Assembly (NCBI GenBank): GCA_016787725.1
Contig: JAEUTZ010000015.1
Location: 124,001-188,000 of the forward strand
Reading direction: 5' to 3'
DNA from: Cyclobacteriaceae bacterium
GTDB lineage: Bacteria; Bacteroidota; Bacteroidia; Cytophagales; Cyclobacteriaceae
DNA: 64,000 nt
Positions 53,795 through 59,532 of the stretch are shown piece after piece. How positions within the stretch are numbered: position 1 is the stretch's first letter; every line of letters starts with the position of its first letter. The position numbers and the translations under genes are program-made. The notes beneath the pieces are model-generated. The model saw only the letters and a program-made list of their open reading frames with translations, ran no database searches and was not told where the DNA came from.

Positions 53795-54337
53795 ATGAAA
53801 ACTACAGCGGGCATTCTCGTTCTATTGGTAAGCTTTAATCTGGCCCACGCGCAAGTGATTGGTACTATGTTTCCCATGATGGAGGCAGAAACTGTGGAAG
53901 ACAAAAAAGTGACCCTTCCCGGAGACACCAAAGGCAAGTACACGTTGCTCGGCTTAGCCTATTCAAAAAAATCAGAAGATGAGTTGAATACCTGGTTCAG
54001 TCCCGTGTTCAATAAATTCGTTCGCAAAACAACCGGTTTAATGGCAGGCATGGGCTATGATGTAAATGTGTTCTTTGTACCCATGTTTACGGGGGTGAAT
54101 GCTGCCGCTACGGGAACTGCAAAAAAGAAAGCCCTTAAAAATATAGACCCTCAACTGCTGCCGTATATCTTATTCTATAAAGGTGAACTCAAGCCCTATA
54201 AGGAAGCGCTCGATTTTGAAAAGAAAGACATCCCCTACTTTTTCGTATTAGACCCGGAAGGCAAAATTGTATATGCTACCTCAGGCCGATTTACAGAAGA
54301 CAAACTGGATGAAGTGGAAGACTCCATTGAAGACTGA
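53795..54337 (+). CDS. Exported thioredoxin-fold-like protein, unknown function
   Basis: 180 residues with a signal peptide (MKTTAGILVLLVSFNLAHAQ). The order of strands and helices (KYTLLGLAYSKKSEDELNTW, then FVRKTTGLMAGMGYDVNVFF and PYFFVLDPEGKIVYATSGRF) resembles a thioredoxin-like fold such as the ATP10 or AhpC/TSA superfamily, but no CxxC is present and the protein has no Cys at all, so it cannot be a redox enzyme of the usual kind. The family is not certain. Confidence 0.75.
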   Translation: MKTTAGILVLLVSFNLAHAQVIGTMFPMMEAETVEDKKVTLPGDTKGKYTLLGLAYSKKSEDELNTWFSPVFNKFVRKTTGLMAGMGYDVNVFFVPMFTGVNAAATGTAKKKALKNIDPQLLPYILFYKGELKPYKEALDFEKKDIPYFFVLDPEGKIVYATSGRFTEDKLDEVEDSIED

Positions 54338-54426: not shown

Positions 54427-54912
54427 ATGGCTTCAAAAGAAACCACATTTATCACGCTCTTTCGAACCCAGGTATTGCCAAAAGTTGAAATTATCAGCTT
54501 GCTGGTGATCCTCACCGGGTTGGTACTTTATCGAATGGAGGTTGCCGAACATCAGGACGTCCTGCTGGTTGGTTTTAGCACACTCGCAGGTTGTTATTTT
54601 CTAACCGGATTTATGATGGTCCCGCTTCCTGCTAAAAGTAAGACCAACTCATTCGCATTCACATTAAATAAGTTAATCTTCATCGCTGCGGCTGTAACGC
54701 TGATTGGGCTCCTTTTTATTCTACTCTCACTGGAGGGGGGGAGGGAAATGCTTCTGGTCGGTTGTGGTGGTCTGGCCATAAGCCTGGTTTCTGCCTCTGT
54801 TCTAATTGCGGTACAGAGTGACAATCTGATTATATTAAAAAGTGCATTCATACGGGGATTTTTACTATTGTTTCTGGGCATCTACTTTATTAAGGATTTA
54901 TCCATCCTTTAA
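54427..54912 (+). CDS. Integral membrane protein of unknown function
   Basis: 161 residues from the ATG at 54427; a longer open frame begins 45 bp upstream without protein-like character. About five membrane helices (20-40, 47-66, 80-101, 106-126 and 137-158). The start SKETTFITLFRTQVLPKVE is amphipathic. No family recognised. It is 9 bp upstream of the PrsW-type gene and belongs to the same run, so it may work with it. Confidence 0.78.
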   Translation: MASKETTFITLFRTQVLPKVEIISLLVILTGLVLYRMEVAEHQDVLLVGFSTLAGCYFLTGFMMVPLPAKSKTNSFAFTLNKLIFIAAAVTLIGLLFILLSLEGGREMLLVGCGGLAISLVSASVLIAVQSDNLIILKSAFIRGFLLLFLGIYFIKDLSIL

Positions 54913-54921
54913 TCGTACCGA

Positions 54922-55665
54922 ATGGAAATACTTATTCTGCTCGCCATTGCGTTAGCGCCCGGGGTTGCCATAGGGGTTTACATCTACTTAAAAGATCACC
55001 ATGAGCGTGAACCCCTGGGCCTTCTGCTCCGAAGTTTCCTTTTTGGTGTGTTGAGTATTTTCGTAACCCTGATTATCAGTCTGATCATTGAGCAATTTAT
55101 TACCATTGATGAAGCCAGCCTGAGTGAACAAGCAGTACATGCTTTTCTGATTGTCGCGTTGGTTGAAGAATTCAGCAAATTCATATTTGTTCGAGGCATT
55201 CTGTACAACAATAAACATTTCAATGAACCATTCGATGGCATCGTTTATTCGGTAATGGTCGGGATGGGGTTCGCCACCTTTGAAAATATTTTATACGCCA
55301 TCAATGGTGGATTTGGAACAGCGATCATGCGCATGTTTACAGCGGTGCCGGCTCACGCTGCCTTTGCCGTGTTAATGGGCTTTTACCTGGGCAAAGCAAA
55401 ATTTGAACACAAGAAATCCTACTATGCCCTTCATGCGCTGGCAGTAGCAACCCTATTTCACGGGGCCTATGATTACTGCCTGTTTATTTCGTGGGTGCCC
55501 GGCCTTGTTTTAGGCGCGCTTGTTTCTTTGATCCTTGGGATCTGGTTATCTAAAAAAGCGATTCGGATCCATCAAATAGCGTCCCCCTTTAATTTGAAAA
55601 ACACGCCTGAACCCAAAGCTGAATCGAATCCAACCACTGAAAATAACGCTTCCCCCTTACCCTGA
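54922..55665 (+). CDS. PrsW-family intramembrane metalloprotease
   Basis: 247 residues with about eight helices. Metalloprotease residues: EEFSK (E82-E83-K86), FATFEN (120-122 region with E121), PAHAAF (H145) and LFHGAYDY (H180). The motif set EExxK ... FxxxEN ... H is that of PrsW, which makes the first cut in some anti-sigma factors in Bacillus. The tail is Pro/Ser/Asn-rich and cytoplasmic. No anti-sigma factor gene is near. The next gene, a BLUF protein, starts 4 bp after the stop. Confidence 0.9.
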   Translation: MEILILLAIALAPGVAIGVYIYLKDHHEREPLGLLLRSFLFGVLSIFVTLIISLIIEQFITIDEASLSEQAVHAFLIVALVEEFSKFIFVRGILYNNKHFNEPFDGIVYSVMVGMGFATFENILYAINGGFGTAIMRMFTAVPAHAAFAVLMGFYLGKAKFEHKKSYYALHALAVATLFHGAYDYCLFISWVPGLVLGALVSLILGIWLSKKAIRIHQIASPFNLKNTPEPKAESNPTTENNASPLP

Positions 55666-55669
55666 TGCT

Positions 55670-56113
55670 ATGTATCACCTGGTTTATGTAAGCTATGCAA
55701 CCCGGTCATTATCCGATCAGGATTTGCTGAAGATCCTTCAAAGCAGCCGGGAAAATAACAAAGCCTTAGGGATTACCGGAATGCTGATTTATCTGCATGA
55801 ACGATTTATTCAGGCACTGGAAGGAAATGAGCAGAAGGTGCAAACCCTCTTGGAAAAGATTAAGGAGGACCCGATGCATAAAAAAGTCACGCTAATCCTG
55901 GAAGGCACTTCTCCGCACAGGCTGTTCAAAAACTGGTCGATGGGATTTAAAAATTTGTCTACTGCAGATTTTACTCAACTGAGCGGATTCACCGATATTG
56001 AAAATTTCTTTGCCAAGCCGGTTGCCTATTCCGAAGGCCATGCGGTGATGACTTTCTTACAATTGTTCTACAAGAAAAACTTTGTTGATCACCCGGAAGT
56101 AACCACTTATTAA
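55670..56113 (+). CDS. BLUF-domain blue-light photoreceptor
   Basis: 147 residues consisting of one BLUF domain (about 1-95) and a short C-terminal helical extension (to 147). All flavin-contact and switch residues are present: Tyr6 (LVYVS), Asn30 (ENNKALGITG), Gln48 (FIQALEG), Trp89 and Met91 (FKNWSMGF). FAD should bind and undergo the usual blue-light shift in the Tyr-Gln hydrogen bond. There is no EAL or GGDEF or other output domain, so the partner must be another protein. The gene lies 4 bp after the PrsW-type gene and 1 bp before a potassium channel gene. Confidence 0.95.
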   Translation: MYHLVYVSYATRSLSDQDLLKILQSSRENNKALGITGMLIYLHERFIQALEGNEQKVQTLLEKIKEDPMHKKVTLILEGTSPHRLFKNWSMGFKNLSTADFTQLSGFTDIENFFAKPVAYSEGHAVMTFLQLFYKKNFVDHPEVTTY

Positions 56114-56114
56114 T

Positions 56115-56879
56115 ATGCTACGAGAAGCTTTGACTAAAAAATTTGAACACGCAGAATTTCGTATGCGTGGCAAAGAACCTGGCCGCCTTGAAAATTTCAG
56201 CGATGCAATTTTTGCATTGGCCATTACCTTGTTGCTGATTTCGACTTCTCCTCCTACCAGTTTTGAGCAGGTAAGGCGTTTTGCTTATGAGCTATTTCCT
56301 TTCCTGGTGTGCATCACCCTGATCATGCTGATCTGGCACGAGCACTTTCAGTTTTTTCTACGCTACGGTTTAAGAAATAGCCGAATGCTTGTATTAAACA
56401 CGCTCTTTCTGGCGATTGTGTTGTTTTACGTATATCCTCTAAAATTCCTTACCAAAATCATAATCCTATTCCCCATTGGCCTGCTCGTCAATGATCAGGC
56501 TTTACTTAACGATTTAAGTGGGATGATCCGGGCGCAGGATATGGGTCAATTGATGATTATTTATGGCCTTGGAGCAACATTTGTTTTTACGGTCTTGATG
56601 CAAATGTATCGGTATGCTTTGAGTAAGGCCGATGAACTGGGATTAAATGAACTGGAGCGCTTCGATACAAAAGTCAGCATTCGCACCAACCTGTTAATGG
56701 CTTCTGTTCCACTGATGTCGGTCATTCTGTCAATCATTTTTATCAATAGTTGGGTGGCTGGACCGGCTTCGGGATTCATTTACTTTCTTTACACCCCCAT
56801 TATGTTTATTCACGGTAAACGGGCAGACCGGCAGCGTAGAGAACTAATTGCTTCAATCCAGTCCTCCACACCTGATTGA
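56115..56879 (+). CDS. TMEM175-family potassium channel (DUF1211)
   Basis: 254 residues. The selectivity signature RLENFSDAIFALAITLLL (R24, F28-S29-D30) begins helix 1, and about six helices make one repeat, as in bacterial TMEM175 tetramers. LIWHEHFQFFLRY in the second to third helix region is also typical. TMEM175 proteins conduct potassium without the classical TVGYG filter. The ATG is 1 bp after the BLUF stop (TAA, then T, then ATG), so the two are expected to be cotranscribed and translated together. Confidence 0.9.
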   Translation: MLREALTKKFEHAEFRMRGKEPGRLENFSDAIFALAITLLLISTSPPTSFEQVRRFAYELFPFLVCITLIMLIWHEHFQFFLRYGLRNSRMLVLNTLFLAIVLFYVYPLKFLTKIIILFPIGLLVNDQALLNDLSGMIRAQDMGQLMIIYGLGATFVFTVLMQMYRYALSKADELGLNELERFDTKVSIRTNLLMASVPLMSVILSIIFINSWVAGPASGFIYFLYTPIMFIHGKRADRQRRELIASIQSSTPD

Positions 56880-56880
56880 T

Positions 56881-59454
56881 TTATTCCTCCGCTCCACCAA
56901 ACCCACCCGATGAGATCAACCCGCCAAAGAAAACGGCATTAAACAACAGTTTGTTCGTACCATACCAATACCCCCGAAACGCAGGATCATCAATAAATAA
57001 AATGGCCCGCCCCTGACCCACCGCGCTTACCTGAAGAGAAACAGAATTTCTAATGCGCCCAAGATTGGTGGGATGAATATATCCACTCAATAAGGGATTG
57101 CCTGTATACTTAATCACAGTATTGAATGGACTTTTGCTTGCTTCAACAAAAACTGTGGTATTCCTATATACTGGGAGTTCACGATTTGTGTAGCCAAACC
57201 CCAGCGGATGAGTTATGTCCAGATTGGTCTGATAGATAGATCCCCCGATAGCCCGAGATCCTTGATAATCGCCAGCAGTTACATAGTCCATTCTCTTCAC
57301 TTCATTCTTTTCCTCCTCTTTTCGCAGCTGCTCTTCAATCAACTTGTTGTTAATAGCCCACGAGACAGCGTTCTTTACCAGCAGCAACGTGCCGCCCTGC
57401 TGCATCCACGTCTTGATTTTAGTCACGCCACTTTCGCCCAATACACTGTAGTTTCCTGAAACCATGATGAGCGTGTTATATTCACTGAGGCGTAGTTGGC
57501 CAAACTGTGTGGTGTTCACTTTGGTAATCGGCATTTTCAGTTTGGAATCGAGCAGAAACCAAACCGCACCCGCATCGGTTGCAGCAACCCCGTCACCCAC
57601 CAACATGGCTACCTTTGGCGGTTGTATCGTACGGATATGATTACTTCCCAAATCGATACCCTCCAGGTTAAATCCGGTATTCACTGCATGAATGTCCAAT
57701 CCCGTTGAAACTGAGGCTTCCTTCATCACTGAAAATAATTCATCCGATGACAGGCTTTGGTCAGCAACAGAAATGAGCAGAGTTCCATAACCAAACTTCC
57801 GATTGATTCCCTGGATGGAAGCCGAAAATGGTTTGAATGCAGTTTTTACAAAAACATTTTTCGAGAGCAGGAAATGCAAAGCCCGTGCAGCCTGATACTC
57901 ATTCCAGTCAATCAGGTAGGCGTAGGCGGCCTTCTCAAGTGGTGCCGGAATGGGCACCAGGCTTTCTGGAGTTACCCGACTGCCCATTGATACTTTTACA
58001 GTTGCCGTCAATGCATCGTGTGGCAAGCCGTACGCGAGCGCCATCGTCCAGGTTGAGGCATCATAAAAAACGCTATCGTGAAAGGAAGTTACTTTTTCAA
58101 ACAAACTGCGCACCATCCGGTATTGGATTTGATCCGTAGGAACGATAAAAGCTTTCCCTTTATCATATCGGGTTGCCCCTACCGATACATCCGCATTGAG
58201 TTGATAGGTTTCAATCCGGTGTTTCATCAATAAATCAGCAAATGCCCGCGTACGACTTTGATCTTTGCTTTCCCCAAACACATACGATTTGATGGCGGAT
58301 TTGCGGCCTTCCTCCAGTGCCGTCTTAAAATAATCCTGCTGATGTTTCAACAGCAACTCCCGGTTATCAACTCCTGCTTTTACAGTGGCGATGCTTGTGC
58401 GAACATGATTGCGGATGGTGAAGGCGAAGGTTACTTCCTTCGTTGAACTCTTTTGCACATGCCCACGCGAACTGGCTTGCTCGAATACCAATCCCAAACC
58501 ACCATGAATATCCGGATAGGTAGAACCATAACCTGGGTAAGAGTTATCAAAATTTTCTTTCGAAAAATAGAGCGAGCCAATGTCGTCCAGCGCCTTGGCA
58601 AAATATTTAGCGAACAGCGGATTCAGTACATCGTAGTTGGCGCGGGGTACTACTGGATTCTCAGAACCATAAGGCTTGGTGGGTTCAAAAAAATTGGTGG
58701 CATTCGTTCCCATTTCATGATAATCGGTACACACATTGGGCAACCACTGATGAAAGAATTCAACCCGATTACGGCTTTCCACATGGGCCAAGGGCAACCA
58801 GTCGCGGTTTAAATCAAACCAATAGTGATTGAAGCGGCCACCGGGCCAAACTTCGTTGTGCTCCCGATCCATTGGATCCGATACGGGCGGGAATCCTTTA
58901 TGCATATTGGCCCAGTTGCTATGACGATCGCGACCATCCGGATTGTAATTGGGGTCGATGTGAATAACAGCTTCCCGTAAAGTGCGTTCAGCTTCGGGGC
59001 CTTGCAATGCCACCAGGTAGTAGGCGGTTAGCATGGCAGCTTCACTGCTGCTGGGTTCATTGCCATGCACATTATAGCCGTGTGTGATAATGACAGGCAT
59101 GGTTTTCAGGTTCACCGATTGTTTCGGATCAGCCAGCTTAAGATGCTCTTTGCGGATTTCTTCAATTCGGGAATAATTGTCCGGGCTGGTAATGGTTAAC
59201 ACAACCTGTGGCCGGTGTTCGTTGGTATATCCGATAATCTGAAAATGTGCATTGGGTGAAACGCGGGCCAGCTCCTGAAAATACGAGACAATCCGATCAT
59301 GTCGTGTATGCCATTCCCCAATAGGGTACCCCAAAAATTGTTCGGGTGAAGGAATCGCTGGATCGAAGCTAACCCCCGAAGGAAAAAAATAACTGTTTTG
59401 TGAGAAGAGGGTGTTTGAAATTGCGAATGCTAATACAAGGAGAAGATTTTTCAT
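56881..59454 (-). CDS. Secreted M14-family zinc carboxypeptidase-like protein
   Basis: 857 residues from the ATG at 59454, which begins a signal peptide (MKNLLLVLAFAISNTLFSQ); the open frame runs 33 bp more. Zinc ligands H130 and E133 (HGNEPSS) and H246 (CTDYHEMG), substrate Arg in DLNRDW (R217) and candidate catalytic Glu325 (GLVFEQASSRG) are present. About 500 residues after the peptidase domain form an extra region, probably including a class I glutamine-amidotransferase-like fold (VAMLVGDGVAATDAGAVWFL). It likely removes C-terminal residues from peptides at the surface or in the periplasm. Convergent with the TMEM175 gene. Confidence 0.88.
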   Translation of the reverse strand: MKNLLLVLAFAISNTLFSQNSYFFPSGVSFDPAIPSPEQFLGYPIGEWHTRHDRIVSYFQELARVSPNAHFQIIGYTNEHRPQVVLTITSPDNYSRIEEIRKEHLKLADPKQSVNLKTMPVIITHGYNVHGNEPSSSEAAMLTAYYLVALQGPEAERTLREAVIHIDPNYNPDGRDRHSNWANMHKGFPPVSDPMDREHNEVWPGGRFNHYWFDLNRDWLPLAHVESRNRVEFFHQWLPNVCTDYHEMGTNATNFFEPTKPYGSENPVVPRANYDVLNPLFAKYFAKALDDIGSLYFSKENFDNSYPGYGSTYPDIHGGLGLVFEQASSRGHVQKSSTKEVTFAFTIRNHVRTSIATVKAGVDNRELLLKHQQDYFKTALEEGRKSAIKSYVFGESKDQSRTRAFADLLMKHRIETYQLNADVSVGATRYDKGKAFIVPTDQIQYRMVRSLFEKVTSFHDSVFYDASTWTMALAYGLPHDALTATVKVSMGSRVTPESLVPIPAPLEKAAYAYLIDWNEYQAARALHFLLSKNVFVKTAFKPFSASIQGINRKFGYGTLLISVADQSLSSDELFSVMKEASVSTGLDIHAVNTGFNLEGIDLGSNHIRTIQPPKVAMLVGDGVAATDAGAVWFLLDSKLKMPITKVNTTQFGQLRLSEYNTLIMVSGNYSVLGESGVTKIKTWMQQGGTLLLVKNAVSWAINNKLIEEQLRKEEEKNEVKRMDYVTAGDYQGSRAIGGSIYQTNLDITHPLGFGYTNRELPVYRNTTVFVEASKSPFNTVIKYTGNPLLSGYIHPTNLGRIRNSVSLQVSAVGQGRAILFIDDPAFRGYWYGTNKLLFNAVFFGGLISSGGFGGAEE

Positions 59455-59532
59455 AGGGTCAACTTTTAACCCTGAAAAATTACTCAATCAGAAAATTGGG
59501 ATTGGGAATTTGTGATGAAAGGTTAACGATTG

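Follow-up and report, generated by a model that had tools for sequence, protein, structure and literature searches.

In the window, the 64,000-nucleotide stretch of DNA that was analysed, the gene for a short BLUF photoreceptor follows the gene for a PrsW-type intramembrane protease and precedes the gene for a TMEM175 channel. Within a group of mostly uncultured Bacteroidota, the PrsW-BLUF pair was found to be kept in two lineages, and no significant link was found between BLUF and the channel. Our tentative reading, to which we give a probability of roughly 40%, is that BLUF serves as a light-dependent regulator of the PrsW-type protease or of its pathway, TMEM175 being an optional third member. 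Light control of proteolysis is our best guess because the protease is the most constant neighbour of BLUF and because the setting of PrsW in B. subtilis is regulated intramembrane proteolysis. A light-gated channel as the main reading was set back because the presence of BLUF and that of TMEM175 were unassociated.

The gene run and its proteins

The three genes had been described from sequence as lying on one strand, 4 bp and 1 bp apart, and this was borne out by the ORF coordinates, with Pfam naming all three. According to the ORF calls they form one tight run on the + strand. The features of this region are as follows:

53795..54337, + strand: ATP10-like protein, the match being weak (21.8 bits, below the cut-off of 22.3)
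54427..54912, + strand: membrane protein of five helices, one hairpin of which is GldL_N-like; in part of the genus it is the block's upstream member
54922..55665, + strand: PrsW-family intramembrane protease (247 aa ORF; Pfam PF13367, NCBIfam, 29-row alignment)
55670..56113, + strand: short (PixD-type) BLUF putative photoreceptor (147 aa ORF; Pfam PF04940, switch residues, model)
56115..56879, + strand: predicted TMEM175 channel, MtTMEM175 type (254 aa ORF; Pfam PF06736, match to MtTMEM175)
56881..59487, - strand: M14 zinc carboxypeptidase, convergent, marking the block boundary and found in the same place in several relatives

The PrsW protein scored 137.3 bits against PF13367 (Pfam cut-off 23.5), and E82 E83, K86, E121 N122, H145, H180 and D184 were invariant in a 29-row alignment; E82, E83, E121, H145 and H180 are presumably the catalytic positions. 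Against NF033739, the NCBIfam equivalog for PrsW sensu stricto, it scored 172.9 bits, below the cut-off of 225, and the protease is therefore named PrsW-type and not PrsW itself. B. subtilis PrsW is a site-1 protease that cuts the anti-sigma factor RsiW under envelope stress (excerpt of PMC3498285). The window protein is like it in belonging to the PF13367 family and in its invariant motif positions. It is unlike it in its NF033739 score, and RsiW, through which the B. subtilis enzyme serves the envelope-stress response (PMC3498285, same excerpt), has no known counterpart as a substrate here.

The BLUF protein scored 106.2 bits against PF04940 (Pfam cut-off 25). The sequence-only reading had presented it as a stand-alone BLUF protein with all five switch residues and no output domain, and this description was verified: Y6, N30, Q48, W89 and M91 are all in place, the Tyr/Gln/Asn and Trp/Met switch is complete, and the protein of 147 aa has a conserved C-terminal helix (FLxLFYxKN) and no output domain. 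The predicted structure (pLDDT 84.4) has helices at residues 98-105, 110-115 and 125-135, the C-terminal part being less certain. Both the best fold matches and the best sequence matches were PixD structures, and the fold match spanned the length of the protein. On sequence and model, the window BLUF is thus a short PixD-type putative photoreceptor. The earlier implication that a stand-alone BLUF is odd needs correction, since stand-alone proteins are the commonest BLUF kind; short proteins make up most of the family, and only a few have a known downstream partner (as far as the consulted part of PMC4844311 goes). Like PixD (Slr1694 / Tll0078), the cyanobacterial short BLUF, the window protein is stand-alone and has C-terminal helices. 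PixD signals via its C-terminal helices through light-dependent binding of a separate partner, the response-regulator-like PixE, in phototaxis (excerpt of PMC5899715), whereas the window BLUF has as neighbours a protease, a GldL-like protein and a channel.

The assignment of the third gene to the TMEM175 family, also made from sequence, stands. Its product scored 45.8 bits against PF06736 (Pfam cut-off 25) and matched MtTMEM175 (6hd8) with an E-value of 4.3e-52 over residues 14-245, nearly the whole length. The window protein has R24, F28 S29 D30, L35 and T38, and RxxxFSD is the TMEM175 channel motif. MtTMEM175, a K+ channel of Marivirga tractuosa, was studied by electrophysiology, Thr38 being the selectivity residue and Leu35 the proposed gate (excerpt of PMC7176437), and the window protein retains the residues aligned with both. 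It is, as judged from sequence, a close relative of MtTMEM175 and a predicted K+ channel. In the excerpt of PMC7176437, MtTMEM175 stands without a photoreceptor partner, whereas the window TMEM175 adjoins BLUF. In B. subtilis, the LOV photoreceptor YtvA and YugO are linked to hyperpolarisation by blue light, said to act via the sigma-B stress response (excerpt of PMC12627116). The window run would similarly join blue light and a bacterial K+ channel, whereas its sensor is a BLUF protein.

Of 69 channel rows, among which some species appear twice, 65 cover this position, and T38 was retained in 55 of them. In channels that follow PrsW with no BLUF, the Thr38-aligned residue was Ala in L181-L183 and Gly in L195, L200 and L208 (here and below, L and G with a number denote a locus and a genome, respectively); K+ selectivity is much reduced in the T38A mutant of MtTMEM175 (excerpt of PMC7176437).

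Upstream of the protease gene, the frame from the ATG at 54427 ends at 54912, 9 bp short of PrsW, and encodes 161 aa. The protein has five helices and gave no whole-fold match at an E-value of 0.001 or better. It had been called unknown, but it does have relatives: in its family, 15 of 16 proteins matched Pfam GldL_N at E-values up to 1, the best being 2.6e-11, while the window copy reached only 0.062, under the cut-off. The family profile matched PDB GldL chains (E 3.3e-6), and the second hairpin is the part that matches these type IX secretion motor components. On visual inspection the first hairpin seemed to resemble it, which would amount to a tandem arrangement of two hairpins. The genes directly on either side do not include a GldM. 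The suggestion that this gene belongs to the run holds in so far as the same block is seen in part of the genus; the gene also varies, however, with 5 changes on a 50-row PrsW tree. In 55 of 80 loci (best 80 of 255 PrsW relatives), a member of the ATP10-like family directly preceded PrsW.

Gene order in the genus and among PrsW loci

For the genus, represented by 63 genomes, the gene families were located on fetched loci by means of profiles derived from the window proteins. Matches to BLUF, PF06736 and PrsW were found in 25 (24 over the cut-off), 39 and 46 genomes, respectively. The 46 PrsW-bearing genomes comprised 11 with PrsW-BLUF-TMEM175, 10 with PrsW-BLUF, 10 with PrsW-TMEM175 and 15 with neither neighbour, counts that include a split BLUF (L110), two decayed ones (L112 and L114) and one lacking its first residues in the called frame (L107), a broken (L156) and a split (L119) channel, a split (L127) and a broken (L164) PrsW and, among the 15, two genomes in which the contig ends within approximately 200 bp after PrsW (G123 and G158). 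From the named collection we used the best 80 of the 255 relatives detected with a PrsW profile; they are largely species of the genus plus neighbours. Here BLUF adjoined PrsW in 23 loci, with the channel in 10 and without it in 13; TMEM175 only was present in 18 and neither gene in 39. These figures include decayed BLUF copies in L187 and L190, a split one in L203 and, among the 39, two loci (L185 and L221) that end right after PrsW.

Restriction of the adjacency to a single genome had been named beforehand as speaking against it; the ordered triple was found in 11 of 63 genus genomes and in 10 of 80 PrsW loci (best 80 of 255; largely the same species). In both samples the order was always PrsW-BLUF-TMEM175 wherever all three were side by side. 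Both BLUF and TMEM175 are apparently being lost in places, since decayed or split copies (BLUF in L112, L113, L114 and L110; TMEM175 in L156 and L119) adjoin relatives with intact ones, and some of these copies may be assembly errors. Where a frame was missing, no tblastn trace of TMEM175 or BLUF was found at an E-value of 1e-3 in the loci searched.

BLUF presence is associated with PrsW and not with the channel

In the 63 genus genomes, PrsW was present in 24 of the 25 with BLUF (Fisher p=0.001) and in 22 of 23 after two genomes with another BLUF type were dropped (p=0.0025), and long-type TMEM175 occurred with PrsW in 22 of 24 cases (p=0.0096), kinship being ignored in each of these tests and many of the genomes being incomplete. 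BLUF and long-type TMEM175 occurred together in only 12 of the 25 BLUF genomes (table 12/13/12/26, p=0.29, kinship likewise ignored), and the corresponding counts for BLUF and the channel in the best 80 of 255 PrsW loci (10/13/18/39) gave p=0.44. An intact BLUF stood beside PrsW in four genomes with zero PF06736 match (G122, G164, G171 and G173), and other genomes, such as G139, G151, G118 and G141, have the channel next to PrsW and lack a BLUF match.

On PrsW trees of 50 and 81 rows, BLUF changed 7 and 8 times and the channel 14 and 15 times, respectively. In the 50-row tree, 6 independent pairs differed in BLUF, and the channel differed the same way in 2.0 and the opposite way in 2.0. In the 81-row tree, the corresponding values for 4 independent pairs were 1.2 and 0.3, which was not significant, and among 8 independent pairs that differed in the channel, BLUF was unchanged in 7.1. 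Neither tree gave a significant link between BLUF and the channel in either direction. The mutual dependence in presence expected of a light-gated BLUF-TMEM175 module was therefore not seen. The coupling of BLUF to the channel that had been suggested from sequence thus keeps the support of an adjacency conserved in the genus, but each gene is kept beside PrsW without the other, and their presence is not associated. The option of a coupling between BLUF and PrsW, also raised there, fared better as far as co-occurrence and conservation of the pair in a second lineage go, the light coupling itself being what we infer.

All five switch residues were present in 19 of 23 distinct rows of PrsW-adjacent BLUF, the other 4 being decayed, split or short in the called frame. 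For BLUF pairs without a channel, dN/dS was 0.27 (L099-L102) and pN/pS was 0.20 (L092-L096, with silent sites saturated), from few pairs. Judged from these sequences, BLUF without the channel seems to be still under purifying selection. In a 58-row BLUF tree, all 25 PrsW-adjacent rows fell in one 36-row group (support 95/66), together with 11 solo rows. Solo copies of the window BLUF's subfamily were found in L089, L098, L101, L111, L113 and L167, and in one genome (G175) a BLUF of this subfamily was present with no PrsW match.

The PrsW-BLUF pair in a second lineage and in wider samples

Five loci of a second lineage, from Chryseotalea sanaruensis and four MAGs, keep PrsW-BLUF with no channel adjoining; the C. 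sanaruensis pair is carried by a named strain, Ys. In this lineage the pair has a DPP-IV-like S9 peptidase downstream and a divergent pseudouridine synthase upstream. When these 5 loci were compared with 19 other PrsW-BLUF loci over approximately six genes on each side, 80 of the 95 comparisons shared only PrsW and BLUF. Five of the remaining comparisons also shared the S9 peptidase, 5 also shared the pseudouridine synthase, and 5 shared PrsW alone, L187 having a decayed BLUF. The upstream neighbour varies in the first lineage as well, being the GldL-like gene in 7 of 19 loci and a pantothenate kinase in 9 of 19. A distant link between BLUF and the channel in the second lineage is possible because at least two of its genomes carry a long-type TMEM175 elsewhere, approximately 30 kb (G033) and 93 kb (G104) from BLUF.

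Of 20 long-type channels inspected from other genera of the family, only that of G065 adjoins PrsW, and none adjoins BLUF; G065 has PrsW and BLUF separated by one gene. Adjacent PrsW-BLUF was found only in this family in a sample of 292 genomes of the order, among the matches listed. Among 335 genomes sampled across the phylum, PrsW and BLUF were both present in 9, and the two genes are adjacent only in two of these, both of the window's genus.

Proposed mechanism and alternatives

The core of the proposed system would be the PrsW-type intramembrane protease with the PixD-type BLUF as its regulatory neighbour. Photon capture would change the shape of the BLUF C-terminal helices. In one light state BLUF would be bound, either to the protease on its cytoplasmic side or to a protein of the pathway, and in the other state it would be released. 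The analogy with PixD suggests that such a soluble sensor would hold its partner differently when lit. Blue light would in this way tune how a membrane protein, most probably a regulator, is cleaved. TMEM175, the optional third gene of the run, may be a downstream effector or a substrate, BLUF being kept without the channel. Co-transcription, physical contact, light control of cleavage and any substrate are parts of this scheme that we infer. The protease itself has no need of BLUF, because no BLUF adjoins PrsW in 57 of 80 loci (best 80 of 255; two end less than 200 bp after PrsW). Counting against light control of the protease are the solo BLUF copies, the BLUF of G175 in a genome without PrsW, the decayed (L112 and L114) and split (L110) BLUF genes and the rarity of the adjacency across the phylum.

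Nearly as likely as a light-controlled protease is that the genes are mere neighbours or share a transcript with no functional coupling, small genes coming and going in a syntenic stretch while the partner of BLUF lies elsewhere. The downstream genes f4, f8 and f20 are common to many genus loci; some of the conservation is therefore no more than ordinary synteny, and the BLUF-channel adjacency in the genus may be plain synteny for the same reason. The 8 BLUF and 15 TMEM175 changes on the 81-row PrsW tree and the solo copies within the window BLUF's own subfamily are also in keeping with an absence of coupling. It is less easily reconciled with a PrsW-BLUF pair that outlives nearly all of its neighbours between two lineages, or with the strong co-occurrence of BLUF and PrsW.

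Two schemes give the channel a larger part. In one, which we regard as improbable, blue light acts directly on the channel, BLUF binding TMEM175 and altering K+ conductance and membrane potential. BLUF and TMEM175 are immediately adjacent in 11 of 63 genus genomes and in 11 of the 12 that hold both; the pore residues of the MtTMEM175 type are kept, no BLUF-linked channel being among the rows with an altered T38 or L35; and blue light shifts bacterial membrane potential via K+ channels in other species (excerpt of PMC12627116). Against this stand the unassociated presence of the two genes in both the 63 genomes and the best 80 of 255 loci, the constancy of BLUF in approximately 7 of 8 tree-independent pairs that differ in the channel, and the intact BLUF in genomes without any PF06736 match. 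Moreover, outside the genus, no BLUF was found beside TMEM175 among the matches listed for the family sample (118 genomes), the closest being approximately 30 kb away. In the other scheme, which we hold to be quite improbable, the three proteins form one chain: light, sensed by BLUF, governs the protease, which in turn processes or controls the channel. It would account for the constant order of the three genes wherever they adjoin and for the recurrence of PrsW-TMEM175 with RNase G or another gene downstream, the two genes overlapping by 4 bp in 5 of 10 BLUF-less genus loci. However, BLUF and TMEM175 are each dispensable in nature, and we know of no cleavage site or interaction.

A more far-reaching form of the light-controlled protease, and a rather unlikely one, would be a natural blue-light-controlled intramembrane protease: a PrsW-family enzyme to which a soluble PixD-like sensor binds, thereby turning regulated intramembrane proteolysis on or off. 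In some species TMEM175 would have been added to the system, and light would then affect membrane potential as well. In open-licence full texts, subscription journals being mostly outside this corpus, no text was found that treats BLUF and PrsW together, and BLUF and TMEM175 occurred together only in one unrelated text. A search there for blue light with intramembrane proteolysis, an anti-sigma factor and a photoreceptor gave no result. The parts are already known, and the BLUF-PrsW pairing is new to us. An intramembrane protease is a new class of conserved BLUF neighbour and a concrete partner candidate. If light control of the protease is correct, we know of no earlier case of a light input into PrsW-type proteolysis, and the pair would be a possible optogenetic tool.

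Further observations

The source genome (4.2 Mb, 27 contigs) had one BLUF match and one PrsW match. In the named collection, the closest relatives were for the most part MAGs with the titles Cyclobacteriaceae, Flammeovirgaceae, Cytophagales or Bacteroidetes bacterium. A second, shorter TMEM175 (212-aa frame, 109 bits) was found on another contig of the source genome (G000:C18:77715-77981). A sigma-70 scan gave 3 promoter-like and 2 terminator-like sites, the shuffle means being higher (6.5 and 3.1, respectively), and a Bacteroidota-type promoter pattern had 1 match in the window, outside the block, compared to 2.79 expected. An anti-phage defence system was dropped as a candidate after PADLOC models gave zero matches to 4 proteins at an E-value of 0.01.

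In one genome without a PrsW or BLUF match (G127, locus L116), TMEM175 follows the ATP10-like gene directly, with PrsW, BLUF and the GldL-like gene missing between them. The solo BLUF genes of L101 and L113 lie, as judged by eye, between an Rnf-like electron-transport operon and a 2-oxoacid oxidoreductase-like pair.
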